Shown: positions 9,678-60,551 of the stretch, piece after piece
Position numbering within the stretch: position 1 is the first letter of the stretch
Layout: the number at the start of each line of letters is the position of its first letter
Assembly: GCF_036884655.1 (NCBI RefSeq)
Contig: NC_088331.1
Location: 15,705,001 to 15,769,000 of the forward strand
Reading direction: 5' to 3'
Length of the DNA: 64,000 nucleotides
Source of the DNA: Musa acuminata AAA Group
Lineage: Eukaryota; Streptophyta; Magnoliopsida; Zingiberales; Musaceae
Notes under the pieces: generated by a model
What the model was told of the DNA's origin: nothing
Seen by the model: only the letters and a program-made list of their open reading frames with translations
The model's database searches: none
Position numbers and translations under genes: made by a program

Positions 9678-9727
9678 ATTAGTATCAGAGCCCGGTATTT
9701 CTCTTTTCGGATTTACACCCGAGAAAA

Positions 9728-19794: not shown

Positions 19795-19843
19795 GTTGGT
19801 ATCAAAGCTATGATTTTCTCGTTTGGTTTAACACCTAAGAGAA

Positions 19844-21761: not shown

Positions 21762-21920
21762 ACATATCTACAATTAAAAGCTAGGAGCAAAAAAATGATA
21801 TTTTAATAATAGATGTTCAAGGCTTATGACTCGAGATCCAATACACTTTTCAAAGCTCACTAGCTAAAACAACAAAGAAAAAATCATTAGAATTAGAATT
21901 ATTTATAACAAATCAAACTT
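21762..21920 (+). pseudogene. pol: Copia protease remnant
   Basis: Directly after gag lies a short frame with CSRLMTRDPIHFSKLTS, which corresponds to the C-S-R-H-M-T-G block that follows the catalytic DSG of Sirevirus/copia proteases. The rest of pol is deleted. It shows that the ancestral layout of this family was gag then pol. Confidence 0.6.
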
Positions 21921-33113: not shown

Positions 33114-34725
33114 TGTTAGGATCGGAGCGGCACTAAGAGGGGGGGTGAATTAGTGCAGCGGATTAAAACTTCAGTTTTGGAAAAATCTTTCGTACGATAA
33201 AAACCAATATCGATGAAAATCGATTTGGAAGCTTGATAACTTAGAAGCGTATGGAAGCGTAGTGAGTAAGTAAAGAAGTTTGCAGTATGTAAATGACAAG
33301 AGTAGAATGCAAACCAGATAACATAGTGGTTTTAAAGTGGTTCGGTCAAAATGACCTACATCCACTTGCGAAGCCTTCTTCGAAGAGGCTCCTAACTTCC
33401 ACTAGCAAAATCTCTTTGTAGGGGAAGGACTAATACCCCTCTTACAACCTTTACAAGTGGTTCACACTCTTACAATTCTTTTCAACAAGATGGGAGGAGG
33501 TGAACACTCAAGCAATTTGAAAAACAAGACTTGCTAAGACTTTTCTAAGGCTCTTATCTCAAACTATTGCTTTGCCAAAGGTTATGATATTAGCTGAGAA
33601 TTGAGGGGTGTTTATAGGCCCCAAGAGGATTCGAATTTTGGCTCCAAAATTTGAATTCTCTTGAGTTTCCGTGGCTGGCGATGCCACCGCTTGTCGATGG
33701 CGGTGCCACCGCCGGATCTCTCAGGTGCTGGACGGTGCCACCGCTCAGTCCAGCGGTGCCACCACTCGGATCTTGGGTTCTAGGCGGTGCCACCGCCTAA
33801 TCTCATGGTGCCATCGCCTATACTATTTCAGCTCACTGGTTGGGCTCCAAACTTGGTCCGAACCAGTCCGAACTCGGGCCCAATTGGCCCCTACTTGGGT
33901 TATAGGATTAACACCTAATCCTAACCCTAATTAACGTACTAACTATGAATTTAAAGACATTTCCTAAGCTATTACAAAGTCCGCAAGTTAAGACTTCTTT
34001 CGGTGAGCTTTCGGCGAACTTCTGGCGGTCTTCCGATAAACTCTTGGAAACCATTCTGCGGACTCCAAGTAAGCTCCTAGACTTCACGATTTGATCTTGG
34101 TGAGTTCCAACGAGCTTCTTCGGCAAGCTTCGATCTTTCTCAGCGAGCTCCGCGAACTTCCAACGAACCTTCCGGCGAGCTTTCGAAAAACCCCTCGGCA
34201 AGCTCCCTACTCATTCTTGGCTAGTTCCGACAGCATTCCCGACGAACCTTCGAACTTCCGTCGAACTCTCGAACTCCCAACGAATCCTTCACGCTTGACT
34301 CCGACACTTTGTTTCGCTTTATGTCTTTGTCGTTATCGTAGTTATTCCTGCACACACAAACGAAAACTCAACTTCGATTTAGACAATTATTATAATGCGA
34401 ATTGACATTCTGTTGCCCGGCACGTCATTGGTTGGCGCTTCATCCGATTCTTCAGCACATCGTCCTCTCTTCTGGCTTGTTGCCCAATTGATGGTTGACC
34501 TCCGCAACCCCGATATCCTTGGCGCAATTCAGCTTTCCTTGGCCCGATGCCCAACGTCCGAAGCCTTCTGCCGTCCAATATCCTGACGTGATCTCCTCCG
34601 GTGTAACGTTTATTCCTCCTGCGTCAACTGTCTAATCCTGATCGAGTAGACCTGCATTACTCAAAATGCAGTTAAACATCTAAACACAATCAATTAGTTT
34701 CATCATCAAAATCCGAGATTCAACA
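33114..34725 (-). repeat. 3' LTR of element 33114-39991
   Basis: Ends TGTTAGGATC (33114) and GATTCAACA (34725). It carries additional GGTGCCACCGCC units at about 33675-33830 compared with the other LTR. Confidence 0.93.
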
Positions 34726-37477: not shown

Positions 37478-38422
37478 TCAAGTAATTTCAAAATAATTTA
37501 AGAGAGTTGAGTTACTTACCTTGTAGTCGAAGCCCGTCAAAGCCCAATTCGTTGTTTCACCTTTGGAAGTTCTTGATTCATCCTTGGGTGCCTTCCTTTT
37601 CTTTGGCCTCTTCCTCCGTTCAAGTTCACTGTTTATTTTAGATTTTTGTTTAATGAACTTATTAAGATTTAGTGTTCGAAGTTCAAGTTCATCATTGTCC
37701 TCATCACTTGAGTCATCGCTCAAGTGGTATTCATTTGTCTGGAGTTCCAAATCCTTCCTATTCTTTGGAAGGTGGTTCAAGTGTTCATCGTGTTCATCAT
37801 GTGCATTGCGCACCATTTCATATGTCATCAATGAGCCGATAAGTTCTTCAAGTGGAAAAATATTTAAATCTTTTGTTTCTTGTATTGCGGTTATTTTAGG
37901 ATCCCACCTTTTTGGAAGGGATCTTAAGATCTTGCTTACGAGATCAAAAGTTGAAAAAGATTTACCAAGAACTCTTAGATTATTGACGACATCCGTGAAA
38001 CGGGTGTACATGTCGCCAATAGTCTCGCTTGGTTGCATTCGAAAAAGCTCAAAATCATGTAATAAAATATTAACTTTCGAGTCTTTGACTCTACTAGTTC
38101 CCTCGTGTGTGATTTCAAGTGTTTGCCAAATATCAAAAGCCGTTTCGCACGTAGAAATCTGATTGAACTCATCTTTGTCCAAAACGCAAAATAAGGCATT
38201 CATAGCCTTTGCGTTTAAAGAAAAATACTTCTTCTCCAAATCCGACCATTCGTTCATCGGTTTAGAGGGAAGTTAAAAACCGTTTTCAATGATATTCCAT
38301 AAATCCAAATTCATAGAAATCAAGAAAACTCTCATTCGAGTTTTCCAATAAGTGTAGTCCAATCCGTTAAACAACGGTGGACGAACAACCGATAAGCCCT
38401 CTTGAAAGCCATGAAGAGTCAT
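37478..38422 (-). pseudogene. gag: Shortened Sirevirus-type gag with premature stops
   Basis: ATG at 38422 (minus), 36 bases from the primer site. It runs RPPLFNGLDYTYWKTRMR and reaches an in-frame TAA at about 38270. From 38257 there are 259 clean codons: WSDLEKKYFSLNAKAMNALF, THEGTSRV, PSETIGDMYTRFTDVVNNLR, KILRSLPKRWDPK and LPKNRKDLELQT, the equivalent of residues 58-255 of the intact Gag. The zinc knuckle region is missing; the protein instead continues through a lysine-rich stretch to NYFEIT and stops. Except for the early stop this is a well preserved UBN2 core. Confidence 0.88.
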
Positions 38423-38472
38423 TTCTCTCGAGTGTAAATCTGAAATGAGAAATACCGAGCTCTGATACCAAT

Positions 38473-39991
38473 TGTTAGGATCAGAGTGACACTAAGAGGG
38501 GGGGGGGTGAATTAGTGCAGCGGATTAAAACTTCAGTTTTGGAAAAATCTTTCGTACGATAAAAACTAATATCGATGAAAACCAATTTGGAAGCTTGATA
38601 ACTTAGAAGCGTATGGAAGCGTAGTGACTAAGTAAAGAAGTTTGCAGTATCTAAATGGCAAGGGTAGAATGCAAACCAGATAACACAGCGGTTTTAATGT
38701 GGTTCGGTCAAAATGACCTGCATCCACTTGCAAAGCCTTCTTCAAAGAGGCTCCCAACTTCCACTAGCAAAATCTCTTTATAGGGGAAGGACTAATACCC
38801 CTCTTACAACCTTTACAAGTGGTTCACACTCTTACAATTCTATTCAACAAGATGGGAGGAGGTGAACACTTAAGCAATTTGAAAAACAAGACTTGCTAAG
38901 ACTTTTCTAAGGCTCTTATCTCAAACTATTGCTTTGCCAAAGGTTATGATCTTAGCTGAGAATTGAGGGGTATTTATAGGCCCCAAGAGGATTCAAATTT
39001 GGGCTCCAAAATTTGAATTCTCTTGGGTTTCCGAGGCTGGCGGTGCCACTGCTCAGATCTCGGGTTCTAGGCGGTGCCACCGCCTACATTATTTCAGCTC
39101 ACTGGTTGGGCTCCAAACTTGGCCCGAACCAGTCCGAACTCGGGCCCAATTGGCCCCTACTTGGGTTATAGGATTAACACCTAATCCTAACCCTAATTAA
39201 CATGCTAACTATGAATTTAAAGACATTTCCTAAGCTATTACAAAGTCAGCAAGTCAAGACTTCTTTCGGCGAGCTTTCGGCGAACTTCCGGCGGTCTTCC
39301 GATAAACTCTTGGAAACCATTCTGCGGACTCCCGGCAAGCTCCTAGACTTCATGATTTAATCTTGGTGAGTTCCAACAAGCTTCTTCGGCAAGCTTCGAT
39401 CTTTCTCGGTAAGCTCCACGAACTTCTAACGAACCTTCCGGCGAGCTTCCGAAAAACCCTTCGGCAAGCTCCCTACTCATTCTTGGCTAGTTCCGGCAGC
39501 ATTCCCGACGAACCTTCGAACTTCCGTCGAACTCTCGAACTCCCAACGAATCCTTCACGCTTGACTCTAACACTTTGTTTCGCTTTATGTCTTTGTGGTT
39601 ATCGTAGTTATTCCTGCACACACAAACTAAAACTCTACTCCAATCTAGACAATTATTACAACGCGAATTGACATTCTATTGCCCGACATGTCATTTGTTG
39701 GCGCTTCGTCCGATTCTTCAGCGCATCGTCCTCTCTTGCGGCTTGTTGCCCAATTGATGGTTGACCTCTGCAACCCCGATATCCTTGGTGCAATTTCGCT
39801 TTCCTTGGCCTGATGCCCAACGTCCGAAGCCTTCTGTCGTCCAATATCATGACGTGATCTCCTCTGGTGCAACGTCAATTCCTCCTGCGTCAACTGTCTA
39901 ATCCTGATTGAGTAGACTTGCATTACTCAAAATGCAATTAAACATCTAAACACAATCAATTAGTTTCATCATCAAAATCCGAGATTCAACA
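38473..39991 (-). repeat. 5' LTR of element 33114-39991
   Basis: Plus-strand ends TGTTAGGATC at 38473 and GATTCAACA at 39991. It has a shorter GC-rich array than its partner (39040-39085) and a G-run at 38499-38507. Confidence 0.93.
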
Positions 39992-41257
39992 GTTGGGAGT
40001 TCGAGAGTTCATCGAAAGTCCGGACGTTCGTCAGAAGTTCTAGCGGAACCAACCGAGAAGTCTCAGAGCTTGCTAGAGAAGCTCATCGGAACTCACCAAG
40101 AAGACTATCATAAAGTCCAAGATCTTGTTGGGAGTCTATCAAAATAATGCTGAGAGATCGTCGGAAGTTCACCGGAAGCTCGCCGGAAGAAACCAAGACA
40201 TAGGGACTTATTTAGCTTAGCAAATATCTTAGGAATCATAGTTAGCACGTAATTGGGTTTAGATTTGGGCCAACCCAATTAGGGGTCAGCTAAGCCCATG
40301 TAAGGACTGTGTTAGGCCCAATAATTGGCCCAAGTAGTACCACGAGAGGTCTCACCATCGTGGCATAATCTTTGAGACTATGTCAAGCGGTGGTATCACT
40401 AGTCTGGGCGGTTGTACCACCCCTGGTAAGGTGCCAGGCGGTGGTGCCACCCCTGACAAGGTGCCAGGCGGTGGTACTACCCAGCACTACCTCCCAAGTG
40501 GTGGTACCGCCTAGGACAATGTTAGTGTTGACTGACATTGGGTGGTGGTACCGCCCAATGTAGGCGGTGGTACCGCCCGTGCCCAGGGAACCCAAGATGG
40601 GAAAGTTTTAGGCTGCAAGTTTGAATCAACTTGAAGCTTATAAATATCCCTCTCATCCCTGGTTAAAGCATACAAGCACAGAGAGATTAAAAGAGAGAAA
40701 ACATTGCTGTGATCATAAGTGTATTCCCTCCTCTAGCTTAAAAGAGAGATTAAAAGAGAGAAAACGTTGCACTCACTCTCCTCTCTAAACATTGCTGTTT
40801 AGAGAGGAGAGTGAGTGCTTATAAGGGTTATCTCCTAAATTTAATAAAAAGAGAAGAGGGGTGTAAAAAGTGATTGGCCTTTGTCTATTGAAGGAAGACC
40901 TCTAGCGGACACCAGTGACTCATCATCGGAGGAAACTGAAAGTGGATGTAGGTCACGTTGACCGAACCACTCTAAAACTACCATGTTCTCTGATTTGTAT
41001 TTTATTCTTACTATTACCTTACTATAAACCTCTTTAAGTGCTTACTGTCTTCAATTCATTACGTACGCTTTCAAGTTAAGTTTCTGAAATCAGTTTTTTG
41101 TCGGAAATGGTTTTATCGCAACGAAGTTTTTGAAGATGTAATTTTTACCACTGCACTAATTCAACCCCCCCCCCTCTTAGTGCCGACCCTGACCTCTGAT
41201 CCTAACAATTGGTATCAGAGCCATGGTTTTCTAATTTAGTTTAATGCCCAAATAGAA

Positions 41258-42179
41258 ATGGCTCTTTTTGGCTTTCAAGAGGGTCACTCTCTCAATCGTC
41301 CTCCCTTTCTAAATGGGACGGACTACACTTATTGGAAAACTTGAATGAGAGTTTATTTTTATTGAATCTCGATTTATGGCACATAGTCGAATTTGGTTTT
41401 AAAAGGTCTTCTCTTCCGATGAAAGATTGGAATGATTTGGAGAAGAAGACTTTTTCTTTAAATGCTAGAGCTAGAAATGCTCTATTTTGCACCTTAGATA
41501 AAACGGAATTTAATCGGATTTCTCTATGTGAAACGGCCTTCGATATTTGGTATATTCTTAAAATCACACATGAAGGCACAAGTAGTGTAAAAAGTTCTAA
41601 AGTAATTTTTTTGATGCACGATTTTGAGATATTTTGTATGGAACCAAGAGAGGCTATTGGAGATATGTACACCCGTTTTACGGATGTCGTCAATAGTCTA
41701 AAAGCACCTAGTAAAATCTTTTCAAATTTTGAACTCGTTAAGATTTTGTACTCACTTTCTAAAACTTGGGATTCAAAAGTAATTGCTATTCAAGAATCAA
41801 AAAATTTAAATACTTTTCTAATCAAAAAACTAATAGGATCTTTGATGACCTATGAAATGATGTACAATGCACGTGAAGAACTCGAGAACCACCTTCCAAA
41901 GAACAAGAAAGATTTCGAACTTAGAACATTTGAAGACCACTTGAGCATAAGCTCAAGTGATGGTGAACATGAACTACTCACTAAGAAATTTAAAAAGTTC
42001 ATGAAACAAGAATTAAAGAACAAGAATAAAAAGAACGCAACTACTTGCTTTGAATGCAAAAAAAAGAACACAAAGTAGGATGAATCAAGCTCCTCTGAAG
42101 ACGAAGAGAAAATCAAAAAATGCAAGGTGGCAAACTATGCCTTATCGGCTTTCGACGTTGAGGTAATCAAAATGCCTTT
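41258..42179 (+). pseudogene. gag: Shortened Sirevirus-type gag, frameshifted
   Basis: ATG at 41258, 36 bases after the PBS; RPPFLNGTDYTYWKT then a stop and a frameshift near 41340. From about 41350 the frame is open to 42076: WNDLEKKTFSLNARARNALF, EAIGDMYTRFTDVVNSLK and LPKNKKDFELRT. The knuckle starts as CFECKK but its GHxxxxC half is missing: after a stop (42076-42078) the frame goes directly to DESSSSEDEE and on to a YFEIT ending. This ending is shared with the gags at 1-861 and 37478-38422. The protein would lack nucleic-acid-binding CCHC fingers. Confidence 0.87.
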
Positions 42180-44585
42180 AGTTTATTTTGAAATTACATA
42201 ATATTTTTCATGAGTTATTTTTAATTTAGTTTAGTTGTTTTTCTTGAAAATTACATGTTTAATAATGTTTAATAATGAAAATGCAAAAATTAAGAATCAT
42301 GCTTATCATGCTAGTAATTTTGAAAATAATCATAAAAATTACATATGATAAAGAAACAAAAAATTAGACTTAAATCATGCTAGATGTTTTTTTTTATGTG
42401 ATAAAGTGATAATATGTATCTTGATAATCTTTGTATTTAATTGAAAATACTTTATGAAATCATGCTTGATGAAATAATGTAATGATGATTTGATATCATG
42501 CTTAATGATGATGCATGGATTTTGTATCAAAAACTAAGCTTGAAAAGTTATATTCACCTAAAAAGAAAAATACATATTTTATGATAAATAAACAAAATGA
42601 TTCTAATTGAAAATATGAGATCATACTTGATGAAATAATGTAATTTAAGATCATGCTTAATAAATTTAAAATTTAAAATTATGCATGATGATTTTTAAGT
42701 AATTTATGGTTTATTGATCTTGATGATTTTTGTGATTATTGAACTTTGCAATTTTTTGAAAGTTCTTTTTCGACATTAATGAATGATGCATGGATTTAGC
42801 ATAAAAGAAAAGAACATGCATGTATAAAATCAATCAATAAGTTGAAACAAAAAGCGAAATGCATTTCTTTTGAAAATTGCTTTTTCTCTATCTTATCAAT
42901 TTTTCACTAAGAGATTGATAACGTTGTTTGTGTCTTTTTGAATCTCTTGAAAGTAATGTTGAGATTTTGATGATTTTGTTGATTTGAATTTGAATGAGCT
43001 TTATCTTGATTTCTTGCAATTATAATTTGAATTCTCTATTGAATGAATCAAGATTGTTTTCTATTTAAAAGGAGATTTATCGGAATGGTTCATGGTCTTT
43101 TAGTATTCATGATCTTGATAATTATGTTTTTAAGACTTTATGTAAATCAAGATTGTTAATCATGATTCTCTCGTTTAATCAAAGAGAATATTTTTCAAAA
43201 TGAATTGTAAGTTGTTTTCTCTTGATATTTTGATACCCACAATTTGAGAAAATGTACCTTGATGCTTGGAACATTTTATGTATAAATTAATTTTTTTATT
43301 CAATACTCCTTTGTAATTATGATTTGTTTATCACATGATATGATTGAATCACTATTATAAAAGAAAAAGGAAATTGTAAGCTTACACATTGCAAATGAGA
43401 ACAAAAATATATGCTAACTTGATTGATAAAACATGAGATTGTCTATACTGCAAATTTATTGTTCTCATATAGATTGAAATAATAATTGGAATATTGATGT
43501 AATTATAAATGATGATTTGGTATTATGCATACAATACTTTAACTTATGATAATGATGCAAGTAATGATGAAATATTCATGATAAAATAATTATTTTGACA
43601 TTCATGACTTGAATTTTCATCTATGCTATTTTCCTTTGTCATGATTTGAAAATTGATGTAAAGGGTCTTCCCTTCTTTTTGACAATGATAAAGGGGGAAC
43701 AAAACTTACTAGAAAGCAAATTTGCTAGCTTGCATAATTCGAAAAGAGGCAAACTTGCTAACTTGCTAATCTAAAAAAGGAAGCAAGAAGTGTTATCTTG
43801 TAAATCTCAAGAAAAGCAATGTTTGCCAAGTTACACATTTCAAAAAGAGGCAAAATAGTCCATCTTGCACATCTCAAAAGATGTAAAATTTTGCTAAATT
43901 TTTTGTGTAAAATTTGATAGCTTTCATATTATAAATTTGATACCAAAAGTGCTATCTTGCTTATCTCAAGATGCAAAACATGCTAATTTATACTTTGCAA
44001 CGGAAGCAAAATTGCTAGCTCAAACATTGCAAAGGAAGCAAAAATTTGCTAGCTTGCAACTTGCATATTTCAAGAAGCAAAAGTTGCTTTCTTAGACATC
44101 TCTAATTTGCTAGCTAACATGATGTAGAACTTGCTATCTTGAACATTATAAAGAAATGCTATCTTGCACATCACAAAGAAAAGCAAATATGCCAACTTGC
44201 ACATCTTTAAATTTGCTAGCTTGTATGTTGTACTACCTTGCATATCTATAACTTGATAGCTTGAATGTTCTAAGCATGATGTAATACTTGCTAAATTTTC
44301 TAACTTCAAATTGCATGATGATAAAACTTGATATTATATTTTTCATGCAATAAATTGAACTTATATGTCCAAACACATGAATAGTGGACTTCTCCTTTTT
44401 GTTGATGATAAAGGGGGAGAAGTATGTTGATATCATGCATGATTTGATCATGACATGTTTGGTTAGATTTTTTAATCTAAGAGTTTCTATCAATAAGGCA
44501 TATTGATAGGGTGAGTTTGTTTAAACTCCAGGAGTTAAGGTTAACTCCATCGTCGATTGGTTGTCATCATAAAAAAGGGGGAGAT
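42180..44585 (+). repeat. Non-coding 3' region with multiple PPTs and repeats
   Basis: No gene seen in 2.4 kb. 42190-43660 is AT-rich with recurring ATCATGCTTGATGA/AATAATGTAATGATG words. PPT-like GATAAAGGGGGAACA (about 43687-43701), GCTAGCTTGCACAT-type repeats (43705-44300), GATAAAGGGGGAGAAG (about 44408-44423) and the terminal PPT at 44571-44585 follow. The layout is the same as in the other Sirevirus-type elements. Confidence 0.8.
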
Positions 44586-46077
44586 TGTTGAATCTCGAAT
44601 TTTGATGATGAAACCAATCGATATGTGTTTATGTTTTAATCTACATTTTGAGTGACATAGGATGCTTTGATCAGGATGAGACAATTAAAGCAAAAAAAAT
44701 CATGTTGTGCCAGGGGAAAATATGTCAGAAGATTAGACGTCGGGCCGGAGGAATGGTCGACGTATCGACAGAAGGCTTCGGGCCATAGATTCAGGCATTA
44801 GGCCAAGAAGAGTGGATATTGCGCTAAGGATATCGAAGTTGTGGAGTCAACTGGCTGATTGGGCAATAGGCCGCAAAAGAGGATGATGCACCGAAGAATC
44901 GAACAAAGTGTCGAGGGACCAATGACATACCAAACAACTTGGTAAATGCTTAGTATTAATTGTCTAGATCGAAGTATGTTTTACATGTGCAGGATTAACT
45001 ACAATAGCAAGACATAAAACAAAATGAAGTCCCGGAGTCAAGGACGCGACTTCGTTGGGAGTTCGAGAGTTCGTCGGAAGTCAAGACTTTCATCGGAAGT
45101 TCTAGTGGAACCAACCGAGAAGTATCAGAGCTTACTAGAGAAGCTCATCAAAACTCGCCAAGAAGATCGTCGTGAAGTCCAAAGCTTGCCGGAAGTCTGT
45201 CAGAACATTGTTGAGAGATTGTCGGGAGTTCACCGGAAGATCGTCGGAAGCTCGCCGAAAGAAACCAAGATATAAGGACTTATTTAGCTTAGCAAATGTC
45301 TTAGGAATCATAGATAGCATATAATTGGATTTGGATTTGGGTCAACCCAATTAGGGGTCAGCTAGACCCATGTAAGGACTATGTTGGGCCTAATAAGTGG
45401 CCTAAATAGTGCCCCAAGAAGTCTCACCGTCATGGCACACTCTTCGAGACTATATCAGGCTGTGGTACCACCAAGGCGATTGTACTGCCCCTAGCAGAGT
45501 GCTTGGTGGTAGTACCGCTAGTCTGGGTGGTGGTACCACCCAGCACTACCCCCCAGACAGTGGTACCGCTAGACCTGGGCAGTGGTACCACCCAAGATAG
45601 TGTTAGTGTCGATTGACACTAGGCAGTGGTACCACCCATCGTAGGCGGTGGTACCACCCGTACTCGGGGAACTCGGGATGGAAAAGTTTTAGGCTCCAAG
45701 TTTGAATCAACTTGAAACCTATAAATACCCCTCTCATCCCTGGTTAAAGCATACAAGCACACAGAGATTAAAAGAGAGAAAACGCTACTTCGATTATAAG
45801 TATATTCCCTCCTCTAACTTAAACTAGAGGAGAGTGAGTGCTTGTAAGGGTTATCTTCTAAACCCAATAAAAGAAGAAGAGGGGTGTAAAAGGTGATTGG
45901 CCTTTGCCTATTGAAGGAAGACCTCTAGTGGACACCGATGACCTGGTCGGAGGAGGAAGCCGAAAGTGGATGTAGGTCACGTTGACCGAACACGTTGATC
46001 GAACCACTCTAAAACTGTCATGTTCTCTAGTTTGCATTTTATTCTTGCTATAACATTACTAAAACCTCTTTAAGTAC
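44586..46077 (+). repeat. Truncated 3' LTR
   Basis: Starts TGTTGAATCTCG, parallels the 5' LTR 32641-41207 and has a GC-rich array at 45460-45660 and a TATA box at 45720-45727. It stops in the middle of the 3' third at ...TTTAAGTACCT; the expected continuation with the C-run is missing and copia LTR sequence starts. Confidence 0.88.
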
Positions 46078-48803: not shown

Positions 48804-48808
48804 CTCCA
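48804..48808. repeat. Target-site duplication CTCCA (left)
   Basis: Identical to 58313-58317; defines the insertion of element 48809-58312. Confidence 0.95.
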
Positions 48809-49977
48809 TGTTGAATCTCGGATTTTGATGATGAAGTCAATTGTCATTTGTTATCTAATCTATGTGTTGAGATAAGTGTGCAGGATTAACTACGATGAGA
48901 TTAAGACAAGCAGCAGGAGTTGCGCCGGAGTCAAGATCATGATCACGTTGGGAGTTCGAGAGTTCGACGGAAGTTCGGACGGTCGTCGGAGGTTCAGAGA
49001 GAACAGATCCGAGAAGTCCAGAAGCTTGCCAAGCGAAGCTCGTCGGAACTCGCCAAGTGGATCGTCGCAAAGTCCAGGAGTATACCGGATGTCCGCAGGA
49101 GGATCACCGAGGGTTATCGGTTGATCGACGGAAGTTGGCCGGAAACTCGCCGGAAGAAGCGATTGACGCATCGGAGCAAGCTGCAGGAGTTGTCTTAGAG
49201 ATAATCGTAGTTAGCACGATGATTAAGCATGAAAATGGGAGGTGATCCCATTAGCTTAATCTTGGGGCAATTGGGCCCCTGAAAAGATTCAAAGTGGGTC
49301 GAATGGAGTGAACCATTCGGACCCTGATTGCACCAGGAGGTGCAACCGCCCCAGCCAGGAGGTGCAACCGCCTGGGCTGTGGGGCTGGGAGGTGCAACCG
49401 CCCCAGCCAGGAGGTGCAACCGCCAGGGGTGCACGGCTGGGAGGTGCAACCGCCCCAGCCAGGAGGTGCAACCGCCAGGGTTGCAAGGCTGGGAGGTGCA
49501 ACCGCTCCAGCCAAGAGGTTGCACCGCCAGAGCTCAAGTTCCGAGCTCTGCCAGGCGATGCAACCACCAAGCTCAGTCTTCGAGCTTTGGCAGTGTGGTG
49601 CATCAGCCTGAGCTCAGTCTCGAGCTTTGCCAGGTGATGCATTCACCAAGCTCAGTCTTCGAGCTATGGCAGAATGGTGCATCAGCTTGAGCTCAGTTTG
49701 GAGCTCTGCCAAGTGATGCAACCACCGAGCTCAGATTTCGAGCTCTGCCAGGTGATGCAACCACCAAGCTCAGTCTTCGAGCTCTGCCAGGTGATGCAAC
49801 CATTGAGCTCAGTCTTCGAGCTCTGGCAGAGAAGAAGCAATCGGCAGAGCTCAGTCTTCGAGCTCTGCCAGGCGGTGCCACCTCTCCAGTTGAGAGGTGC
49901 AACCGCCTGATCCCAGAAATTCTGGGATTAGATCGATTTGATCGTTTTGAGCTCGAATTTTGAATTGGGTTGGGGCC

Positions 49978-49985
49978 TATAAATA
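49978..49985 (+). promoter_or_regulatory. TATA box of 5' LTR
   Basis: TATAAATA within GGCCTATAAATACCCCACCC, the block conserved at the same place in most Sirevirus-type LTRs in the window. It is likely the pol II promoter that drives genomic RNA, gag and possibly ORF2. Confidence 0.85.
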
Positions 49986-50701
49986 CCCCACCCATTCAGC
50001 ACTGAAAAGACACAGACCTATACCGAAATTGTGATCTTTTCTGTGATTCTAAAGAGCTCAAAAGTGTTGTAAATCCTTGAGTCTCCTCCTTCTGTTCTTC
50101 AAGTTTTCAACTGTAAAGTGAGGAGAGAAAGGTCTGTAAAGGTTGTCTCCTAAGCCTGTCAAAAGGAGAGAAACTGTAAGAGGGAAGTTTGGCCTTCGCC
50201 CATTGAAGGAAGGCAGCTAGTTGACGTCGGCAACCTCATCGGTGGAGGAAGCCAAAAGTGGAGTAGGTCAAGGCTGACCGAACCACTCTAAATCTCTGGT
50301 TTGCGTTTAATTTCGAGCACTCTATCATTACTGCAAACCTCCCTCATCACTACTGCTCTCTGCGCTTTCACGAACAAGTTCTAAGTGCTGTTCTTCCAAA
50401 TCTGCATTCAGACGTAAACTTGTATTTTCGTACATTACAGTTTACGTTTACGTTTGATTCTGCAGAACTGTTTTCCGCGCTTTTACGAACGAGCTTCCTT
50501 GCAGTTTACGCTTACATTTTAATCCTATTAATAACTGCAATCTGTCCTCTACGATTTTACGAACGAGTTTCAACATTTAGACGTAAAACTGCATTCGGAC
50601 GTAAATCGGCTTTCTTCGCTCAATCATCAGATTTCAGTTTACGTTTACGTCTTGATTTCAACTGCATACTGCCTTCTGCGAATATACAAACGAGTTTCAA
50701 A

Positions 50702-51040
50702 GTTTAGATGTAAATATGCGTTTAGACGTAAAACTGCGTTTAAACGTAAAACTGCGTTTAGACGTAAATCTGCGTTTAGACGTAAAACTACGTTCAGACG
50801 TAAAACTGCGTTTAAACGTAAAACTGCGTTTAGACGTAAATCTGCGTTTAGACGTAAAACTACGTTTAGACGTAAAACTGCGTTTAGACGCAAATCTGCG
50901 TTTAGACGTAAATCTGCATTTAGACGCAAAACTGCGCTTAGACGCAAAACTGCGCTTAGACGCAATCTGCGCTTAGACGCAAAACTGCGCTTAGACGCAA
51001 TCTGCGCTTAGACGCAAACTGCACTTAGATACAAACTGAG
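50702..51040 (+). repeat. 18-bp minisatellite, about 19 units (left LTR)
   Basis: Units of the form TTTAGACGTAAAACTGCG; the last few are 17 bp and begin CTTAGACGCAA. Units 2-5 and 6-9 repeat as a 72-bp higher-order block. The period is six codons, which explains the long but meaningless open frames over it on both strands. Each unit has an ACGT or ACGC core. Confidence 0.93.
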
Positions 51041-51160
51041 AATTTGCTTTTGCATCATAATCGTTTTTGAACGAACGCAGCTTTTTGTTTTTAAATTATT
51101 ATAAGATTTCCGCTGCACTAATTCACCCCCCCCCCTCTTAGTGCTCTTGATCCTAACAAT

Positions 51161-51172
51161 TGGTATCAGAGT
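51161..51172 (+). promoter_or_regulatory. Primer binding site (initiator-Met tRNA)
   Basis: TGGTATCAGAGT, two bases after the LTR; 11 of 12 match the usual TGGTATCAGAGC site complementary to plant initiator-Met tRNA 3' ends. Confidence 0.88.
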
Positions 51173-51208
51173 AAGGTTAACTCTCTAAAGGATTAAAACC
51201 CAAGAGAG

Positions 51209-52792
51209 ATGGCATACGCCGGAAACCAAGAGGGGCATTCGATTACACGTCCACCCATGTTCAGTGGAACGGACTACACTTACTGGAAGACCCGAATGAG
51301 GATCTTTCTTATTTCTATGGATTTTGAACTATGGAACCTTGTTGAAAATGGATTTTCAAAATCTTCTCTTCCAATGATCGATTGGAACGATTTGGAAAAG
51401 AAGGCTTTCGCTCTTAATGCAAAGGCTATGAATGCCTTATTTTGCGCACTAGATAAAAACGAATTTAATCGTGTTTCAACTTGCGAAACTGCTTTTGATA
51501 TTTGGCACACACTTGAAGTGACCCACGAGGGCACAAGTAGAGTGAAAGAGTCAAAAATCAATCTGTTGCTGCATTCTTTTGAACTTTTTCGAATGAAACC
51601 GAGTGAAACCATTGGCGACATGTTTACCCGTTTCACGGATGTCGTCAACGGTTTAAAAGGTCTCGGAAAGAGCTTTTCGGATTTTGAGCTTGTTAATAAG
51701 ATACTAAGATCCCTTCCTAAGAGTTGGGATCCTAAAGTCACCGCCATTCAAGAGGCAAAAGATCTGCAAAATTTCCCTCTTGAAGAACTAATCGGGTCAT
51801 TAATGACCTACGAAATGACCTGCAAAGCTCATGAAGAGCAAGAAGACATCCTTCCAAAGAACAGGAAGGATATGGCACTTAAAACTTCTGAATGCCACTT
51901 GAGAGAAAACTCAAGTGATGAGGATTGTGACGATGACTTGGCACTGTTGACAAGAAAGTTTAAAAAATTCTTCAAAAGAAACAAGTTTAAAAACGATATG
52001 AAAAATAAACTTGAACCTAAGAAGGACCAAGTGATCTGCTATGAATGTAAAAAGCCGGGACATTACAAAAGTGATTGTCCCCAAGTCAAGAAAAGAACAA
52101 CAAAGAAGAAGGCGCTCCAAGCAACATGGGATGATTCAAGCGCATCCGAGGAAGAAGAATCCAACACCGAGCAAGTTGCTCATTACGCCTTTATGGCCAT
52201 CGAAGGGGAGGTAACGGATTTATTAGATGCTGATTTATCTTTCGATGAATTATTAAATGCCTTCCATGATTTATTTGATGAATGCAAAGTTATAAATAGA
52301 AAATATAAGTTGCTAAAAAGGGTACATGATAATCTTACTTGTGAGTTTGATAAATTAAAAGTCAAACATCATGATAGTTTAAACTCATGTATCAAATGTC
52401 ATGATTTAGAAACTATACAAAATGAAAACTTGCTGCTTAAGGACACCTTGAAGAAATTCGAGGTTGGTAGCAAGTCATTAAACATGATCCTTACAAACAA
52501 GGGTCATGCTCCCAAAAGAAGTGGGATTGGATTTGTGAGGAGTCCTCACCGAAATCCAACTACCTTTGTAAAAGGCCCCATCTTACACGTTCAACACCAA
52601 ACAAAGTGCAATTTTTGTTGCAAATCTGGACACAAGACACATTGTTGTCCATTCAAGAAAATAAGTCCAAACAAATTAATTTGGGTTCCTAAAGGAACCA
52701 TGATAAACTCTATGCAACATGATAGAAAATATAGATCTGTTTATGAGGCACCCAAAAGCAAATGGGTTCCTAAAGATCATCCGTTCCTATAA
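51209..52792 (+). CDS. gag: Sirevirus-type Gag, intact, 527 residues
   Basis: Capsid/nucleocapsid protein expected to package element RNA into cytoplasmic virus-like particles. ATG at 51209 is 36 bases after the PBS, the same spacing as in its relatives. Residues 14-49 hold the TRPPMFSGTDYTYWKTRMR block seen at the start of Sirevirus and related Gags. Residues about 60-210 form the UBN2-type core (NALFCALDKNEFNRVSTCET, PSETIGDMFTRFTDVVNGLK, KILRSLPKSWDPKV). A basic stretch at 249-272 is followed by a first CCHC finger C277-C280-H285-C290, an acidic linker at 308-320, a probable coiled coil at 355-420, and a second CCHC finger C467-C470-H475-C480. The end WVPKDHPFL is shared with the decayed gag at 19844-21761. 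No stop or frameshift. Unlike the shortened gags elsewhere here, both fingers are intact. Not fused to protease. Confidence 0.95.
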   Translation: MAYAGNQEGHSITRPPMFSGTDYTYWKTRMRIFLISMDFELWNLVENGFSKSSLPMIDWNDLEKKAFALNAKAMNALFCALDKNEFNRVSTCETAFDIWHTLEVTHEGTSRVKESKINLLLHSFELFRMKPSETIGDMFTRFTDVVNGLKGLGKSFSDFELVNKILRSLPKSWDPKVTAIQEAKDLQNFPLEELIGSLMTYEMTCKAHEEQEDILPKNRKDMALKTSECHLRENSSDEDCDDDLALLTRKFKKFFKRNKFKNDMKNKLEPKKDQVICYECKKPGHYKSDCPQVKKRTTKKKALQATWDDSSASEEEESNTEQVAHYAFMAIEGEVTDLLDADLSFDELLNAFHDLFDECKVINRKYKLLKRVHDNLTCEFDKLKVKHHDSLNSCIKCHDLETIQNENLLLKDTLKKFEVGSKSLNMILTNKGHAPKRSGIGFVRSPHRNPTTFVKGPILHVQHQTKCNFCCKSGHKTHCCPFKKISPNKLIWVPKGTMINSMQHDRKYRSVYEAPKSKWVPKDHPFL

Positions 52793-53526
52793 AAACATTA
52801 AAAGTCTAGGCCGGAGCAAGAAATAATATTCTGCTCCTTGACTCTCAATGGTCATAAAATCAAAAAGGAACTCGCAACGCTTAAGTAACAAGTAATACAA
52901 TACAATTAGAAACATATGATATCCAAATTCACATACCCCTGATCTTCAAAACCTGTTCATCTACGAATCAATTCTTGTAGAAACTAAACATGTCATAAAA
53001 GGGACACCAAACAAACATTCGTATACACCTTAAAAGATCTATCTTACGAAGAGCTTCTTCCTTAAATGAAAATTCACACGAAATCATGTGACAAACATCA
53101 ATTGCTCTGAAACTCTCCTCAAGGCAAAGGCTCCCTAAATCAAAACATCCTAAAATGCTCACCTGCTGCAGGCGGTGGCACCTCTCCAGCTGGCGGTTGC
53201 ACCTCCAGCCTTCACGGGTTGCCAGAGGTTGCACCGCTCCAGCCAGAGGTGCAACCGCCAGCAGCTCTGCCCCCTTAAAATCACGCTAGGGCCGGCTAAG
53301 GAACCGACCCCAACTCACCCCCATTCCCTCCTCTACTCTTCCAAGACTCCTCCATTCCCACTTCACTCCTCTAAGCCTTCCAAATACCTCCCATTTCGGA
53401 GCAAAACATCAAGAATCCTTCCTTCTCTTGAAGATTTCACAAAGGTATTCTCTAAGAAGCTCTTAAATTCTGTTTTGTTCTTCATTTTCTTTAGCTCATC
53501 ATCATCCCTTTAAAACAGCAGTAGTA
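52793..53526 (+). other. Spacer between gag and second ORF with LTR-like segment
   Basis: No pol domain in any frame. 53160-53270 carries GGCGGTGGCACCTCTCCAGC and GAGGTGCAACCGCCAGCAGC, which closely resemble the LTR U3 array just upstream of the TATA box (compare 49870-49910). After it comes a pyrimidine-rich leader-like stretch (53300-53500) and a TTCATTTTCTTTAG segment just before the ORF2 start, which looks like a splice acceptor. There is no clear TATA box; CCTTAAAATC at 53273 is the nearest candidate. Confidence 0.6.
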
Positions 53527-54642
53527 ATGGGATCTAGAAGATCCTCAAGGGACAAGGGAAAGAGGAGAGTAGTAGAAGAGTTTGATCTCACTCTTTTTGA
53601 TTCCAAAAACCATGCTGAAAAATTTCTCTCCTTCGAACTAAGAAGCATCAATAAGGGAAAATATGTAGATCTGAATGAACTAAGAGATGTAGAGACTATA
53701 CATTGGTTTGCAAACCTAAATCTACTTCCCATTTTGCAGATCAACGAACCCATTTATCCTAGACTAGTTCGATTGTTTTACAACAACATGCAAAAAGATG
53801 ATGAAGAAAGGATATCAACCTATCTCTTAGGACAACACATTTCAATCACTGATAGATTCATTTGTGATATAATAGGTATCCCCATGAAAAGCATAGGACT
53901 TTACTTCAAAGGATCATGGGATGAAAACACTATTGGAACATCTTACGTTGACGCCTTAGGAACAATCCTTGCCAATCCTAACATAGAATCTATTTCTAAA
54001 AGTTGTGAACATCTAATGCCTTTTAACACTAAGATACTTCATCATATCATGACTAGTATAATTCTTCCTAAGCAATATCATCATGATGAAGTAAGTCAAT
54101 TGGAATTAGGAATTATGTACCTAATTATGAAAGAACGTGACATTTGTCTTGGCTATCTGATCCAACAAAACATGTTGGAATTATCTACAAAAGATATGAT
54201 GCTCCCATATGGTGGAATTATTACTAGAATAATGAAAGCTTACGACATTCAAATACCACTAGAAGAAGAAGTAATGAAATCAGATAGATACAGCATAATA
54301 AACAAAAATCTACTTCACCGACTGAGATGTCACTATAGAAGCGGAAACTGGGTAAGAATGCCTAGAAGAACTAATCCCCCTGAACCTGAACCTGAACCAG
54401 AGCCAGAAACCCCAGTCTTTATGAGTACCCACTCTCCTCCAATCTGTCCCTTTGAGGAAACACATCCGGTTGAGCAGACTCACACATCATCCATCGAAGA
54501 TATCGGGATTCGGATGGACCGATTTGAGCAACGACAAGAACGGCTTGAACTTCAACAAGATCAAATCCTAACCGAGCTACAACAAATCCATCGACAATTT
54601 GACTCTTTATTTAGGCACTTTAATCTTCCACCTCATGAATAA
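53527..54642 (+). CDS. ORF2: PF20167-like putative plant transposon protein, 371 residues
   Basis: Intact ORF in the place of pol. The N-terminus is short and very basic (RRSSRDKGKRR, residues 4-14), a possible nuclear signal. Residues about 28-245 follow the pattern I associate with the putative plant transposon protein domain (PF20167, Transposase_32): NHAEKFLSFELRSINKGKYV, YPRLVRLFYNNM (77-88), TYLLGQHISITDRFICDIIG (98-117) with following IP, and MYLIMKERDICLGYLIQQNM (197-216). Then a Pro-Glu repeat (285-294) and a Gln/Glu-rich coiled coil (about 325-363). No signal peptide or membrane helix, so not envelope-like. The biochemical function of this family is unknown; despite its name I see no catalytic motif. 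Conservation of an open frame in a young element suggests use by the element. Confidence 0.85.
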   Translation: MGSRRSSRDKGKRRVVEEFDLTLFDSKNHAEKFLSFELRSINKGKYVDLNELRDVETIHWFANLNLLPILQINEPIYPRLVRLFYNNMQKDDEERISTYLLGQHISITDRFICDIIGIPMKSIGLYFKGSWDENTIGTSYVDALGTILANPNIESISKSCEHLMPFNTKILHHIMTSIILPKQYHHDEVSQLELGIMYLIMKERDICLGYLIQQNMLELSTKDMMLPYGGIITRIMKAYDIQIPLEEEVMKSDRYSIINKNLLHRLRCHYRSGNWVRMPRRTNPPEPEPEPEPETPVFMSTHSPPICPFEETHPVEQTHTSSIEDIGIRMDRFEQRQERLELQQDQILTELQQIHRQFDSLFRHFNLPPHE

Positions 54643-55895
54643 GCTTGTATAAACATCTGATGTTTTTGATATGACATGTTGTAAACTCCTTATGTTATTC
54701 ATGAAGGACTTTGTCTTTATGGTTACCTGATATGCTGTACATATGTTACCCTGATATGGTTATCTTTGTCTGTGTAAGCATATTTTGCAAACATCTCTTG
54801 TTGTTTATCTCGGTTTTTGCACTGAAACTAAAAAGGTTTAAAAACCTATGCCTTGAAAATATGAAGCAACATACCAATGTAAGTTGATAAGTCAGTAGTA
54901 TGACATTGATATGGTAGCTATTGCTAATATGATTGCTATCATGCCATGTATCAAACAAAAATTTGCATCATACGAGCTGATATCTTACCATGTGATGCAA
55001 TGCTACACTTGCTGAAATAAAAATCCTGCTATGCAATATGATATAATGCTGCACTTGAAATAATTGTGTTACTACAATTATTCGAATGCTATTACTACTA
55101 CATGCCTTGACAACGCTTGATCAAATAACATGTTGCAAATTATGTGACAAATACTTGAGTTATTACTATTACATGCCTTGACAACGCTTGATCAAATAAC
55201 ATGTTGCAAATTATGTGACAAATATTCTTAACCAAATGCATGTAAAAAGTTCATTTTTCGGGTTGTATGCTAAAAATGGGATGTTCCCGTACACTCTTAT
55301 GAAAACTCGTTGGAAAATGACTTTCCTCCGTCAAGCAAAAACAATAAAGTGATATATGTGTCATGACTTCCTTTATATGCTTGATCATGCTTTTTGTTGA
55401 TGACAAAGGGGGAGAAAAATATGAATTGATAAACACTATGTCATAAGCTGAACTGCCATAATCAAATCTATGTCATAGTTACAAATACTTGAGTGATGCT
55501 ATAAACAATGTTATGCCATCCTTGCATCACCAAGAGATATGTGAACATGTACTATAGTTTGCATCATATCTTGATTTGATATTGTGAAGATAATGCAAAC
55601 TTGCTAGAAAATCTCAAATGTAAGCATCATGTAAGAAGTCCTTCGTTGCTTTATGTGATTACATGATGATTAGTTACAAACACCATCATACAAACTTGTT
55701 GATGTATGTCATGCCTTGACATAATTCTTGAAGAGATACATCATGATAGGCATCATGATGGGAGCATTGATAAGTTTAACTGATCTAACTTATCAATGCG
55801 TCACTTGAATTCAAAGGTCTTGAATTCAAGGTTGACTATGGCATATAGATAGGGGGAGTTAAGGATAACTCCTTTATCAATTGATTGTCATCATC
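54643..55895 (+). other. Non-coding 3' region of the young element
   Basis: No gene seen. Contains two tandem 71-bp copies (about 55091-55232) built on CATGCCTTGACAACGCTTGA, a PPT-like tract GACAAAGGGGGAGAAAA (about 55402-55418) preceded by TTTTTGTTGAT, and the CAATTGATTGTCATCATC lead-in to the PPT. The GCTAGCTTGCA repeats common in its relatives are almost absent. Confidence 0.8.
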
Positions 55896-55909
55896 AAAAA
55901 GGGGGAGAT
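55896..55909 (+). promoter_or_regulatory. Polypurine tract of the young element
   Basis: AAAAAGGGGGAGAT directly before the TGTTGAATC start of the 3' LTR; plus-strand primer site. Confidence 0.92.
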
Positions 55910-58312
55910 TGTTGAATCTCGGATTTTGATGATGAAGTCAATTGTCATTTGTTATCTAATCTATGTGTTGAGATAAGTGTGCAGGATTAACTACGATGAG
56001 ATTAAGACAAGCAGCAGGAGTTGCGCCGGAGTCAAGATCATGATCACGTTGGGAGTTCGAGAGTTCGACGGAAGTTCGGACGGTCGTCGGAGGTTCAGAG
56101 AGAACAGATCCGAGAAGTCCAGAAGCTTGCCAAGCGAAGCTCGTCGGAACTCGCCAAGTGGATCGTCGCAAAGTCCAGGAGTATACCGGATGTCCGCAGG
56201 AGGATCACCGAGGGTTATCGGTTGATCGACGGAAGTTGGCCGGAAACTCGCCGGAAGAAGCGATTGACGCATCGGAGCAAGCTGCAGGAGTTGTCTTAGA
56301 GATAATCGTAGTTAGCACGATGATTAAGCATGAAAATGGGAGGTGATCCCATTAGCTTAATCTTGGGGCAATTGGGCCCCTGAAAAGATTCAAAGTGGGT
56401 CGAATGGAGTGAACCATTCGGACCCTGATTGCACCAGGAGGTGCAACCGCCCCAGCCAGGAGGTGCAACCGCCTGGGCTGTGGGGCTGGGAGGTGCAACC
56501 GCCCCAGCCAGGAGGTGCAACCGCCAGGGGTGCACGGCTGGGAGGTGCAACCGCCCCAGCCAGGAGGTGCAACCGCCAGGGGTGCACGGCTGGGAGGTGC
56601 AACCGCCCCAGCCAGGAGGTGCAACCGCCAGGGTTGCAAGGCTGGGAGGTGCAACCGCTCCAGCCAAGAGGTTGCACCGCCAGAGCTCAAGTTCCGAGCT
56701 CTGCTAGGCGATGCAACCACCAAGCTCAGTCTTCGAGCTTTGGCAGTGTGGTGCATCAGCCTGAGCTCAGTCTCGAGCTTTGCCAGGTGATGCATTCACC
56801 AAGCTCAGTCTTCGAGCTATGGCAGAATGGTGCATCAGCTTGAGCTCAGTTTGGAGCTCTGCCAAGTGATGCAACCACCGAGCTCAGATTTCGAGCTCTG
56901 CCAGGTGATGCAACCACCAAGCTCAGTCTTCGAGCTCTGCCAGGTGATGCAACCATTGAGCTCAGTCTTCGAGCTCTGGCAGAGAAGAAGCAATCGGCAG
57001 AGCTCAGTCTTCGAGCTCTGCCAGGCGGTGCCACCTCTCCAGTTGAGAGGTGCAACCGCCTGATCCCAGAAATTCTGGGATTAGATCGATTTGATCGTTT
57101 TGAGCTCGAATTTTGAATTGGGTTGGGGCCTATAAATACCTCACCCATTCAGCACTGAAAAGACACAGACCTATACCGAAATTGTGATCTTTTCTGTGAT
57201 TCTAAAGAGCTCAAAAGTGTTGTAAATCCTTGAGTCTCCTCCTTCTGTTCTTCAAGTTTTCAACTGTAAAGTGAGGAGAGAAAGGTCTGTAAAGGTTGTC
57301 TCCTAAGCCTGTCAAAAGGAGAGAAACTGTAAGAGGGAAGTTTGGCCTTCGCCCATTGAAGGAAGGCAGCTAGTTGACGTCGGCAACCTCATCGGTGGAG
57401 GAAGCCAAAAGTGGAGTAGGTCAAGGCTGACCGAACCACTCTAAATCTCTGGTTTGCGTTTAATTTCGAGCACTCTATCATTACTGCAAACCTCCCTCAT
57501 CACTACTGCTCTCTGCGCTTTCACGAACAAGTTCTAAGTGCTGTTCTTCCAAATCTGCATTCAGACGTAAACTTGTATTTTCGTACATTACAGTTTACGT
57601 TTACGTTTGATTCTGCAGAACTGTTTTCCGCGCTTTTACGAACGAGCTTCCTTGCAGTTTACGCTTACATTTTAATCCTATTAATAACTGCAATCTGTCC
57701 TCTACGATTTTACGAACGAGTTTCAACATTTAGACGTAAAACTGCATTCGGACGTAAATCGGCTTTCTTCGCTCAATCATCAGATTTCAGTTTACGTTTA
57801 CGTCTTGATTTCAACTGCATACTGCCTTCTGCGAATATACAAACGAGTTTCAAAGTTTAGACGTAAATCTGCGTTTAGACGTAAAACTGCGTTTAAACGT
57901 AAAACTGCGTTTAGACGTAAATCTGCGTTTAGACGTAAAACTACGTTCAGACGTAAAACTGCGTTTAAACGTAAAACTGCGTTTAGACGTAAATCTGCGT
58001 TTAGACGTAAAACTACGTTTAGACGTAAAACTGCGTTTAGACGCAAATCTGCGTTTAGACGTAAATCTGCATTTAGACGCAAAACTGCGCTTAGACGCAA
58101 AACTGCGCTTAGACGCAATCTGCGCTTAGACGCAAAACTGCGCTTAGACGCAATCTGCGCTTAGACGCAAACTGCACTTAGATACAAACTGAGAATTTGC
58201 TTTTGCATCATAATCGTTTTTGAACGAACGCAGCTTTTTGTTTTTAAATTATTATAAGATTTCCGCTGCACTAATTCACCCCCCCCCCCTCTTAGTGCTC
58301 TTGATCCTAACA
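55910..58312 (+). repeat. 3' LTR of the young element
   Basis: 2403 bp; TATA box 57131-57138; 18-bp array at 57855-58193; eleven C at 58279-58289. Compared with the 5' LTR it has one more 52-bp unit (GGGGTGCACGGCTGGGAGG at its start) in the GC-rich array near 56530-56635. Confidence 0.95.
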
Positions 58313-58317
58313 CTCCA
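58313..58317. repeat. Target-site duplication CTCCA (right)
   Basis: Identical to 48804-48808. Confidence 0.95.
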
Positions 58318-58511: not shown

Positions 58512-60546
58512 TGTTGAATCTCGGATTTTAATGATGAAGTCAATTGTCATTTGTTGTCTAATCTATGTGTTGAGATAAGTGTGCAGGATTAACTACGATG
58601 AAAGTTAGACAAGCAGCAGGAGTTGCGCCGGAGTCAAGTTCATGATCACGTTGGGAGTTCGAGAGTTCGACGGAAGTTCGGACGGTCATCGGAGGTTCTG
58701 CGAGAACAGATCCAAGAAGTCCAGAAGCTTGCCAAGCGAAGCTCGTCGGAACTCGCCAAGTGGATCGTCGTAAAGTCCAGGAGTTTGCCGGAAGTCCGCA
58801 GAAGAATCACCGAGGGTTCATCGGATGATCGACGGAAGTTCGCCGGAAACTCGCCGGAAGAAGCAATTGACGCATCGGAGCAAAGCTGCAGAAATTGTCT
58901 TAGATTTAATCGTAGTTAGCATGTTGATTAAGTTGGAAAATGGGAGGTGATCCCATTAGCTTAATCTTGGGGTAATTGGGCCCCTGAAAAGATTGAAATT
59001 GGGCCGAATGGAGCTAACCATTCGGACCCTGATTGCACTAGGAGGTGCAACCGCCTAGGCTAGGAGGTGGCACCGCCTGGGCTAAGCCTCCCAGCGAGAC
59101 TGGGCGGTGCAACCTCCCCAGCCAGGAGGTGGCACCGCCTGAGCTCAGTCTTCGAGCTAGACTGGGCGGTGCAACCTCCCTGACAGAGAGGTGGCACCGC
59201 CTGAGCTCAGTCTTCGAGCAAGACTGGGCGGTGCAACTTCCCTGATAGAGAGGTGGCACCGCCTGAGCTCGGTCTTCGAGCTCTGCCAGGCAATGCAACC
59301 TCTCCAGTCAAGAGGTGCAACCGCCTGATCCCGAAATTTCGGGATTTGATCGTTTTGAGCTCCAAATTTGAATTGGGTTGGGGCCTATAAATACCCCACC
59401 CATTCAGCACTGAAGGGATATAGATCCACACCGAATTCTTGATCTTTTCAGTGATTCTAAGAGCTCAAATTTGTGTAAAGTCCAAAAGTTCTCCTCTTTT
59501 CTGTTCTTCAAGTCTTGAGTTGTAAAGAGAGGAGAGAAAGGATCTGTAAGGGTTGTCTCCTGAGCCCGTCAAAAGGAGAGAAACTGTAAAAGGGCAGTTG
59601 GCCTTCGCCTATTGAAGGAAGGCCCCTAGTTGACGTCGGTGACCTCGCCGGTGGAGGAAGCCAAAAGTGGAGTAGGTCAAGACTGACCGAACCACTCTAA
59701 ATCTCTGGTTTGCGTTTATTTTGAGCACTTTATCATTACTGCAAACCTCCTACATAGCTACTGCTCTCTGCGCTTTTACGAACAAGTTTCTAAGTTCTAA
59801 TCATTCCGAATCTGCATTCAGACGTCAAAAGGTGTTTTCGTACCATCTTTACATTGCAGCTTACATTTACGTCTTGAATCTGTTTATAACTGCGAACTGT
59901 CTTCTGCGCTTTTACGAACGAGTTTCTTTGCAGCTTACATTTACATTTTGATTCTATTTATAACTACAAACTGTCTTCTGCAATTTTACGAACGAGTTTC
60001 AACATTTAGACGTAAAACTGCATTTAGAAGTAAATCGGCTTTCCTCGCACAATCATCAGATTTCAGTTTACATTTACGTCTTGATTTCAACTGTATACTG
60101 CCTTCTGCGAGTATACAAACGAGTTTCAAAGTTCAGACGTAAATCTGCGTTTAAGACGTAAATCTGCATTTAGACGTAAATCTGCGTTTAGACGTAAATC
60201 TGCTTTTTGCAGATTACTTTTTGAGCTGTACAATAGCAGCACATTGTCTTTATACTTCTGCTTAAACTGCGCTTAGACGCAAACTGTGTTTAGACGCAAT
60301 CTGCGCTTAGACGCAAACTGCGCTTAGACGCAATCTGAGTTTAGACGCAATCTGCATTTAGACGCAAACTGCGTTTAGACGCTAACTGTGTTTAAACGTA
60401 AACTACACTTAATCATAAGTAATCTTAGAATCGGCTTTTGCATCAAAATAGTTTTTATCGAACGAACGCAGCTTTCGTTTTTAATCGCTGAAAGATTTCC
60501 GCTGCAATAATTCACCCCCCCCCTCTTAGTGCTCTCGATCCTAACA
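58512..60546 (+). mobile_element. Solo LTR of the young element's subfamily, TSD CTTTT
   Basis: TGTTGAATCTCG...CCTAACA, 2035 bp, flanked by CTTTT at 58507-58511 and 60547-60551. Like the young element it lacks the ~290-base U3 block. GC-rich array at 59040-59320, TATA box 59386-59393, a shorter and more irregular ACGT/ACGC array at 60140-60400, C-run at 60517-60523. It interrupts the integrase of the minus-strand copia element, only 194 bases from the other insertion. Confidence 0.95.
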
Positions 60547-60551
60547 CTTTT

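Follow-up and report, generated by a model that had tools for sequence, protein, structure and literature searches.

TR-GAG elements are long terminal repeat (LTR) elements that carry terminal repeats and Gag, and no other gene. The element described here, which lies in a stretch of 64,000 nucleotides from Musa acuminata AAA Group (the window; C5:15705001-15769000 of a 1.53-Gb, 1,060-contig assembly), is likewise an LTR element with Gag and without pol, but it has a second gene under selection, open reading frame 2 (ORF2), which encodes a PF20167 protein, and is therefore not a TR-GAG. With the envelope-containing Sireviruses (SIRE/Maximus, Ty1/copia) it shares the CA/ATTGGTATCAGAG junction, poly-C at the LTR end, several polypurine tracts (PPTs), palindromic boxes located both within the LTR and ahead of the 3' gene, a Copia-type Gag and a 3' gene in the envelope slot; it differs from them in having no pol, an internal region of 4.75 kb, and a gag that stops at TAA (17 of 17 intact Gags of the pol-less copies) rather than at TAG, as in its relatives L026 and L027. 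Sireviruses account for 18-24% of banana genome assemblies according to the accessible part of PMC11754795, and in that of PMC2829016 the role of their envelope-slot gene is open and disputed, with envelope function unproven.

A PF20167 domain has also been published in a 3' additional ORF of sunflower Athila (Ty3/gypsy), whose product of 487 aa is predicted to be nuclear (PMC11728184, accessible in part); PF20167 proteins, to which an initial annotation of this DNA, made from the sequence alone, ascribed no known function, therefore already had a published context. ORF2 has in common with the Athila protein the domain and the position as a 3' additional ORF, whereas Athila belongs to another superfamily, has its own pol and encodes a protein of different length (371 aa in ORF2). 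The remaining comparison is with VANC21 of the Arabidopsis element VANDAL21 (MULE), which is also transposon-encoded, resembles the predicted fold of ORF2 residues 24-250, and is associated with short motifs repeated in the non-coding DNA of its element, as are the boxes of the window element, candidate targets of ORF2. VANDAL21, however, is a DNA transposon and the window element an LTR retrotransposon, and VANC21 has no detectable sequence similarity to ORF2. With as much confidence as doubt, we read the window element as a recent member of a pol-less Sirevirus family with many copies, which encodes an intact Gag and an ORF2 protein that is predicted to fold like VANC21 and would likely bind and unsilence the family's own promoters, while pol likely comes from pol-bearing relatives.

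Structure and copy number of the family

The boundary analysis bears out the structural claims of the initial annotation: a perfect target-site duplication (TSD) of 5 bp, CTCCA on both flanks; near-identical LTRs, which differ by substitution at 4 of 2350 aligned sites (Kimura two-parameter distance, K2P, 0.0017) and by one 52-nt indel; a primer binding site (PBS), CA/ATTGGTATCAGAG, directly after the 5' LTR; a PPT, AAAAAGGGGGAGA at 55896, touching the 3' LTR; and two intact ORFs. At the grass substitution rate of 1.3e-8 the LTR divergence corresponds to an age of about 66,000 years, a rough figure. The junction CA/ATTGGTATCAGAGT agrees in 15 of 16 bases with the Sirevirus motif CA/ATTGG + TATCAGAGC, taken from the accessible part of PMC2829016, and both the poly-C integrase signal (CACCCCCCCCCCTC near the LTR end) and the multiple PPTs of Sireviruses are present, two further PPT-like tracts lying upstream of the one at 55896. 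Together with Pfam matches of ORF1 to PF14223 (E 4.4e-33) and zf-CCHC (E 2.8e-5), this junction upholds the Sirevirus type proposed for Gag. The PF20167 (Transposase_32) identity of ORF2 is likewise sound (E 2e-16, 60.8 bits over a curated cut-off of 45), and the PF20167 ORFs of L026, L027, L028 and L029 also exceed that cut-off. A tblastn search of the interior (51159-55909) with pol pieces of a same-genome Sirevirus returned nothing credible (best E 1.1). The element can thus be regarded as recently mobile and pol-less, as proposed from the sequence, except that the claim of an interior free of pol has to accommodate a degraded remnant of the beginning of pol, homologous to the QARSKRWYL stretch of L026 and L027, immediately after the gag stop.

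A genome search with ORF2 scored 110 copies of 10,694 first-look candidates. All 110 are 97-100% identical and 109 are stop-free; some may be alleles, because the assembly may hold several haplotypes. Layout was studied in 20 fetched stretches of 10 kb, at loci all chosen by ORF2 score. A whole or partial gag lies directly upstream of ORF2 in 19 of them, across a linker of ~0.7-0.8 kb, and within the 10-kb stretch of L016 there is none. The elements could be measured in 15 stretches, with interiors of 4,674-4,847 bp and an LTR K2P of 0-0.0085 in 14 of the 15 (in L019 only 80 bp were aligned); TSDs were detected by script in L021 and L022. Pol-like DNA occurs in 3 of the 20, each time outside the element unit. 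Full-span gag was recovered 19 times, window included, of which 17 are intact and two, from the same tandem array, frame-shifted. Copies with intact frames, which the initial annotation had proposed to count, are thus many, and the assignment to a non-autonomous Sirevirus family is secure.

Some copies (L006, L007, L008, L009, L018) stand in head-to-tail arrays with shared single LTRs and a period of ~7.1 kb (G000:C26:20681766-21145702 and G000:C29:15936208-15951659), and in the C26 array ORF2 scores are identical over more than 20 copies. The arrayed element is turning into a long satellite, which may lie near a centromere. In Musa acuminata var. zebrina, the predicted host gene P0009 combines an alpha-galactosidase-like part (judged by eye and by Pfam label) with pieces of this Gag and this ORF2, and is either a chimera or an annotation error.

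Selection on ORF2 and its counterparts in pol-bearing relatives

The pooled pairwise ratio of nonsynonymous to synonymous change (dN/dS, Nei-Gojobori), calculated over 17 distinct copies for each gene, comes to 0.166 in Gag and 0.156 in ORF2, and third codon positions are over-represented among the variable sites, with 70 of the 116 in Gag and 39 of the 69 in ORF2. Selection of this first ORF2 sample by its protein score biases it towards low dN; because that score had ranked it, a second sample was drawn by a search with 391 bp of DNA from the 3' untranslated region (3'UTR; 40 places scored of 1,585), and ORF2 was fetched at 20 of the 40 places, 17 outside the list of the ORF2 search and 3 already in it. 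Eighteen of these 20 ORF2s are stop-free, L037 having a stop and L041 being truncated, and dN/dS is 0.21 over 13 distinct full-length copies, with four copies that have in-frame indels left out. Purifying selection on ORF2 and Gag is similar in the copies (dN/dS 0.16-0.21), and for ORF2 the ratio is well below 1 in both samples. Between the window element and a pol-less sister copy, L028, dN/dS is 0.151 for ORF2 at a dS of 0.669, and 0.075 and 0.215 for two Gag pieces; selection therefore acted in a lineage without pol.

In a genome search for the PF20167 family 150 of 6,482 candidates were scored and four loci (L026-L029) were fetched. L027 runs from gag through an in-frame TAG to pol (Pol_BBD, gag-pre-integrase, rve, SH3 and RVT_2, the 3' part in another frame) and then to a PF20167 ORF with 53% identity to ORF2, followed by LTR ends and a PPT resembling those of the window element. 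L029 (62% identity) and L026 (52%) have the same gene order with pol broken or partial, and all three have a Copia-type integrase/reverse transcriptase (RT) by homology and Pfam, while L028 (79%) is pol-less. Copia Gag, RT and PF20167 are also joined in that order in the predicted Citrus proteins P0102 and P0106 of the protein database. Because pol-bearing relatives run gag-TAG-pol-PF20167, the autonomous Sireviruses of this genome carry PF20167 as their envelope-slot gene, and it is well supported that ORF2 is an inherited envelope-slot gene under selection. These counterparts rule out that ORF2 arose newly in the pol-less lineage, so that it is not a cargo or helper particular to a non-autonomous lifestyle, as the initial annotation had suggested it might be.

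In L026 and L027 pol follows the TAG in frame. A gag-end/stop/pol-start pattern has 2,790 + 2,845 matches in the genome and none in a reversed control; among the matches listed the stop codons are mostly TAG and in a few cases TAA. The single stop that splits one gag and pol frame, in L026, L027 and the 5,635 pattern matches, is a candidate for stop-codon read-through in pol expression.

Whether the family arose by simple deletion, a possibility raised from the outset, has a divided answer. Relatives do have pol between gag and the PF20167 ORF (whole in L027, partial in L026 and L029); on the other side, the window family and L028, two pol-less families, both retain, after the gag stop, degraded sequence that aligns with the pol start, and ORF2 was kept under selection, so that the element is not a simple deletion copy of a single occasion. 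L028 moreover contains, downstream of ORF2, roughly 40 codons from the RNase H end with the stop and the post-pol linker (63% identity, E 2e-12), of which the window family has the flanks without the codons. A simple deletion of pol from a gag-pol-ORF2 order is doubtful at this one locus, since the RNase H end lies downstream of ORF2 while the pol start follows gag; the same single locus suggests that an ORF2 cassette replaced the interior of pol, perhaps by template switching.

Predicted fold of ORF2, palindromic boxes and rival explanations

The best structural match of the predicted ORF2 fold is VANC21, a DNA-binding transposon anti-silencing protein. The VIA comparison covered chains ranked by Foldseek (453 of 454 and 327), so that ORF2 may have a fold other than that of VANC21; searches in a viral library and with plain Foldseek gave nothing significant. 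The predicted VANC21-like domain is preceded by a basic N-terminus and followed by a predicted long C-terminal helix (residues 323-364). As for possible targets, boxes of the GGTNNNACC type number 10 in the 5' LTR, 12 in the 3' LTR and 4 in the linker before ORF2 (~0.01 expected per region), with zero in gag, ORF2 and 3'UTR. In 17 distinct linkers the 36 box sites are invariant, while neighbouring sites vary at 1.6% and the linker further upstream at 3-4%; slid placements, however, score equally well in 8 of 69. Upstream of the PF20167 ORF, L026 and L027 have box variants of their own (GGTGACACC three times), the boxes of L028 are of the window type and L029 has none. This layout fits the published Sirevirus account, in whose accessible part extra boxes are described just upstream of the envelope-like gene and an internal promoter is proposed there (PMC2829016); the conserved region before ORF2 is likely an internal promoter or leader, and it contains a shared GT donor-like site, acceptors not being clear, of a candidate short 5'UTR intron. 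Both LTRs also carry an 18-bp CpG-rich tandem array (window 50570-51060 and 57720-58210), an alternative candidate target for ORF2.

On these grounds a VANC-like anti-silencing factor would be the best single mechanism for ORF2, with the chances for and against it roughly equal. The protein would enter the nucleus by virtue of its basic N-terminus, bind the repeated boxes as an oligomer through the C-terminal helix, and remove or block DNA methylation at the LTR and the internal promoter; Gag would package the element RNA, and pol would act in trans from pol-bearing relatives. Selection on ORF2 in the pol-less lineage would then mean that unsilencing specific to its own family benefits a copy that borrows its pol. 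No match to DUF1985, the domain of VANC anti-silencing proteins, was found by sequence among 18 PF20167 proteins at E up to 10, and CpG depletion, tried as support for unsilencing, failed for the box array (observed/expected, o/e, 0.41), the high LTR CpG o/e (0.96) being due to the 18-bp array (2.22 in the 5' copy) and other LTR parts.

If ORF2 were instead an envelope-like protein in the literal sense, kept because particles need it at a membrane, in movement or at the particle surface, its counterparts in the slot downstream of pol and the boxes upstream, as in the envelope-containing Sireviruses of PMC2829016, would be expected. That explanation was rejected on a simple hydropathy scan, in which ORF2 and 9 homologs show no transmembrane-like stretch (19-residue mean at most 1.42; maximum 1.09 in ORF2), and hence no transmembrane segment of a retroviral-type envelope. 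It is also at odds with the basic N-terminus, the predicted nuclear location of the Athila protein, the DNA-binding character of the best structural match and the unproven status of the envelope function itself, and we consider it quite improbable. A helper of particles or nucleic acids (RNA packaging, cDNA import, integration targeting), working in cis with Gag while pol comes in trans, would account for the similar constraint on Gag and ORF2 and for the persistence of both in the two families without pol; binding to Gag could fall to the long C-terminal helix, and binding to nucleic acid to the basic N-terminus. This view leaves the boxes upstream of ORF2 and the match to a silencing antagonist unexplained, many plant Gag-only elements (TR-GAG) do without ORF2, and for the RNA or cDNA targeting suggested initially nothing was found in support, the structural match pointing instead to a DNA-binding anti-silencing role; we consider a helper unlikely, though it deserves consideration.

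The very low LTR divergence of most measured copies, and the pol between gag and the PF20167 ORF of relatives, are what one would see if the family were an ordinary deletion derivative with ORF2 as a passenger, intact only through the youth of the copies. The dN/dS of 0.15-0.21, both in copies and between the two pol-less families, the excess of variable third positions, and the identity of coding parts (97-99%) against that of linker, 3'UTR and LTR (mostly ~89-97%) argue otherwise; a passenger is ruled out by dN/dS in the two samples, and the derivative as a whole has a very slim chance of being correct.

Features of the element (window positions unless L028 is named)
Feature	Position	Strand	Source
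Left TSD, CTCCA	48804..48808	.	boundary analysis
5' LTR, 2350 bp, TG...CA; tandem-repeat arrays, poly-C tract near 3' end	48809..51158	+	
10 GGTNNNACC-type palindromic boxes (GGTGCAACC/GGTTGCACC, one GGTGCCACC), candidate binding sites, 5' LTR	49339..49904	+	
LTR/PBS junction ATTGGTATCAGAGT, Sirevirus type	51159..51172	+	motif from PMC2829016 (accessible part)
ORF1, Gag, 527 aa, ends in TAA	51209..52792	+	ORF list, Pfam
Decayed relic of pol start	52793..52848	+	
Conserved region upstream of ORF2, 4 GGTNNNACC boxes (53174, 53195, 53227, 53248)	53165..53526	+	
ORF2, PF20167 protein, 371 aa	53527..54642	+	ORF list, Pfam
Three PPT-like GGGGGAG tracts (55405, 55851, 55896), last adjoining 3' LTR	55405..55909	+	
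3' LTR, 2403 bp	55910..58312	+	
Right TSD, CTCCA	58313..58317	.	boundary analysis
RNase H C-terminal relic inside pol-less element, downstream of ORF2	L028 3681-3803	minus	

The host site of the element is an older minus-strand Copia element, recognized by adjacent RT-like minus-strand ORFs. Right downstream (58512-60550) lies a second LTR of the same family, ~82-95% similar, which looks like a solo LTR within a different Copia element. Older Sirevirus Gag relics are found at 19750-23460, 34691-38524, 41145-44629 and 9626-11188, with matching PBS and PPT ends 1.5-3.8 kb apart, and no Sirevirus pol or ORF2 was found in the window outside the element; pol-less or deleted kin are therefore common in it.

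Meaning for PF20167 and the envelope slot

A wider proposal, to which we give slightly less than an even chance, is that PF20167 proteins resemble VANC in counteracting silencing sequence-specifically and form a family encoded by plant LTR retrotransposons (Sirevirus and Athila), that many Sirevirus 'envelope' genes may be unsilencing genes with the LTR boxes as their co-evolving target, and that the pol-less lineage may keep Gag and this factor as a minimal kit. Our literature searches, in which sources were accessible in part, returned no paper linking PF20167 or the Sirevirus envelope-slot gene to VANC, and the accessible part of PMC12844716 leaves for investigation whether methylation is influenced by ORFs of the Tork and Athila lineages. 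Loss of pol in the family described here amounts to a natural experiment, in which Gag and ORF2 were both kept. If PF20167 is VANC-like, the envelope-slot gene would gain a testable function, unsilencing, and an abundant orphan family a mechanism, and anti-silencing would reach beyond DNA transposons to LTR retrotransposons.

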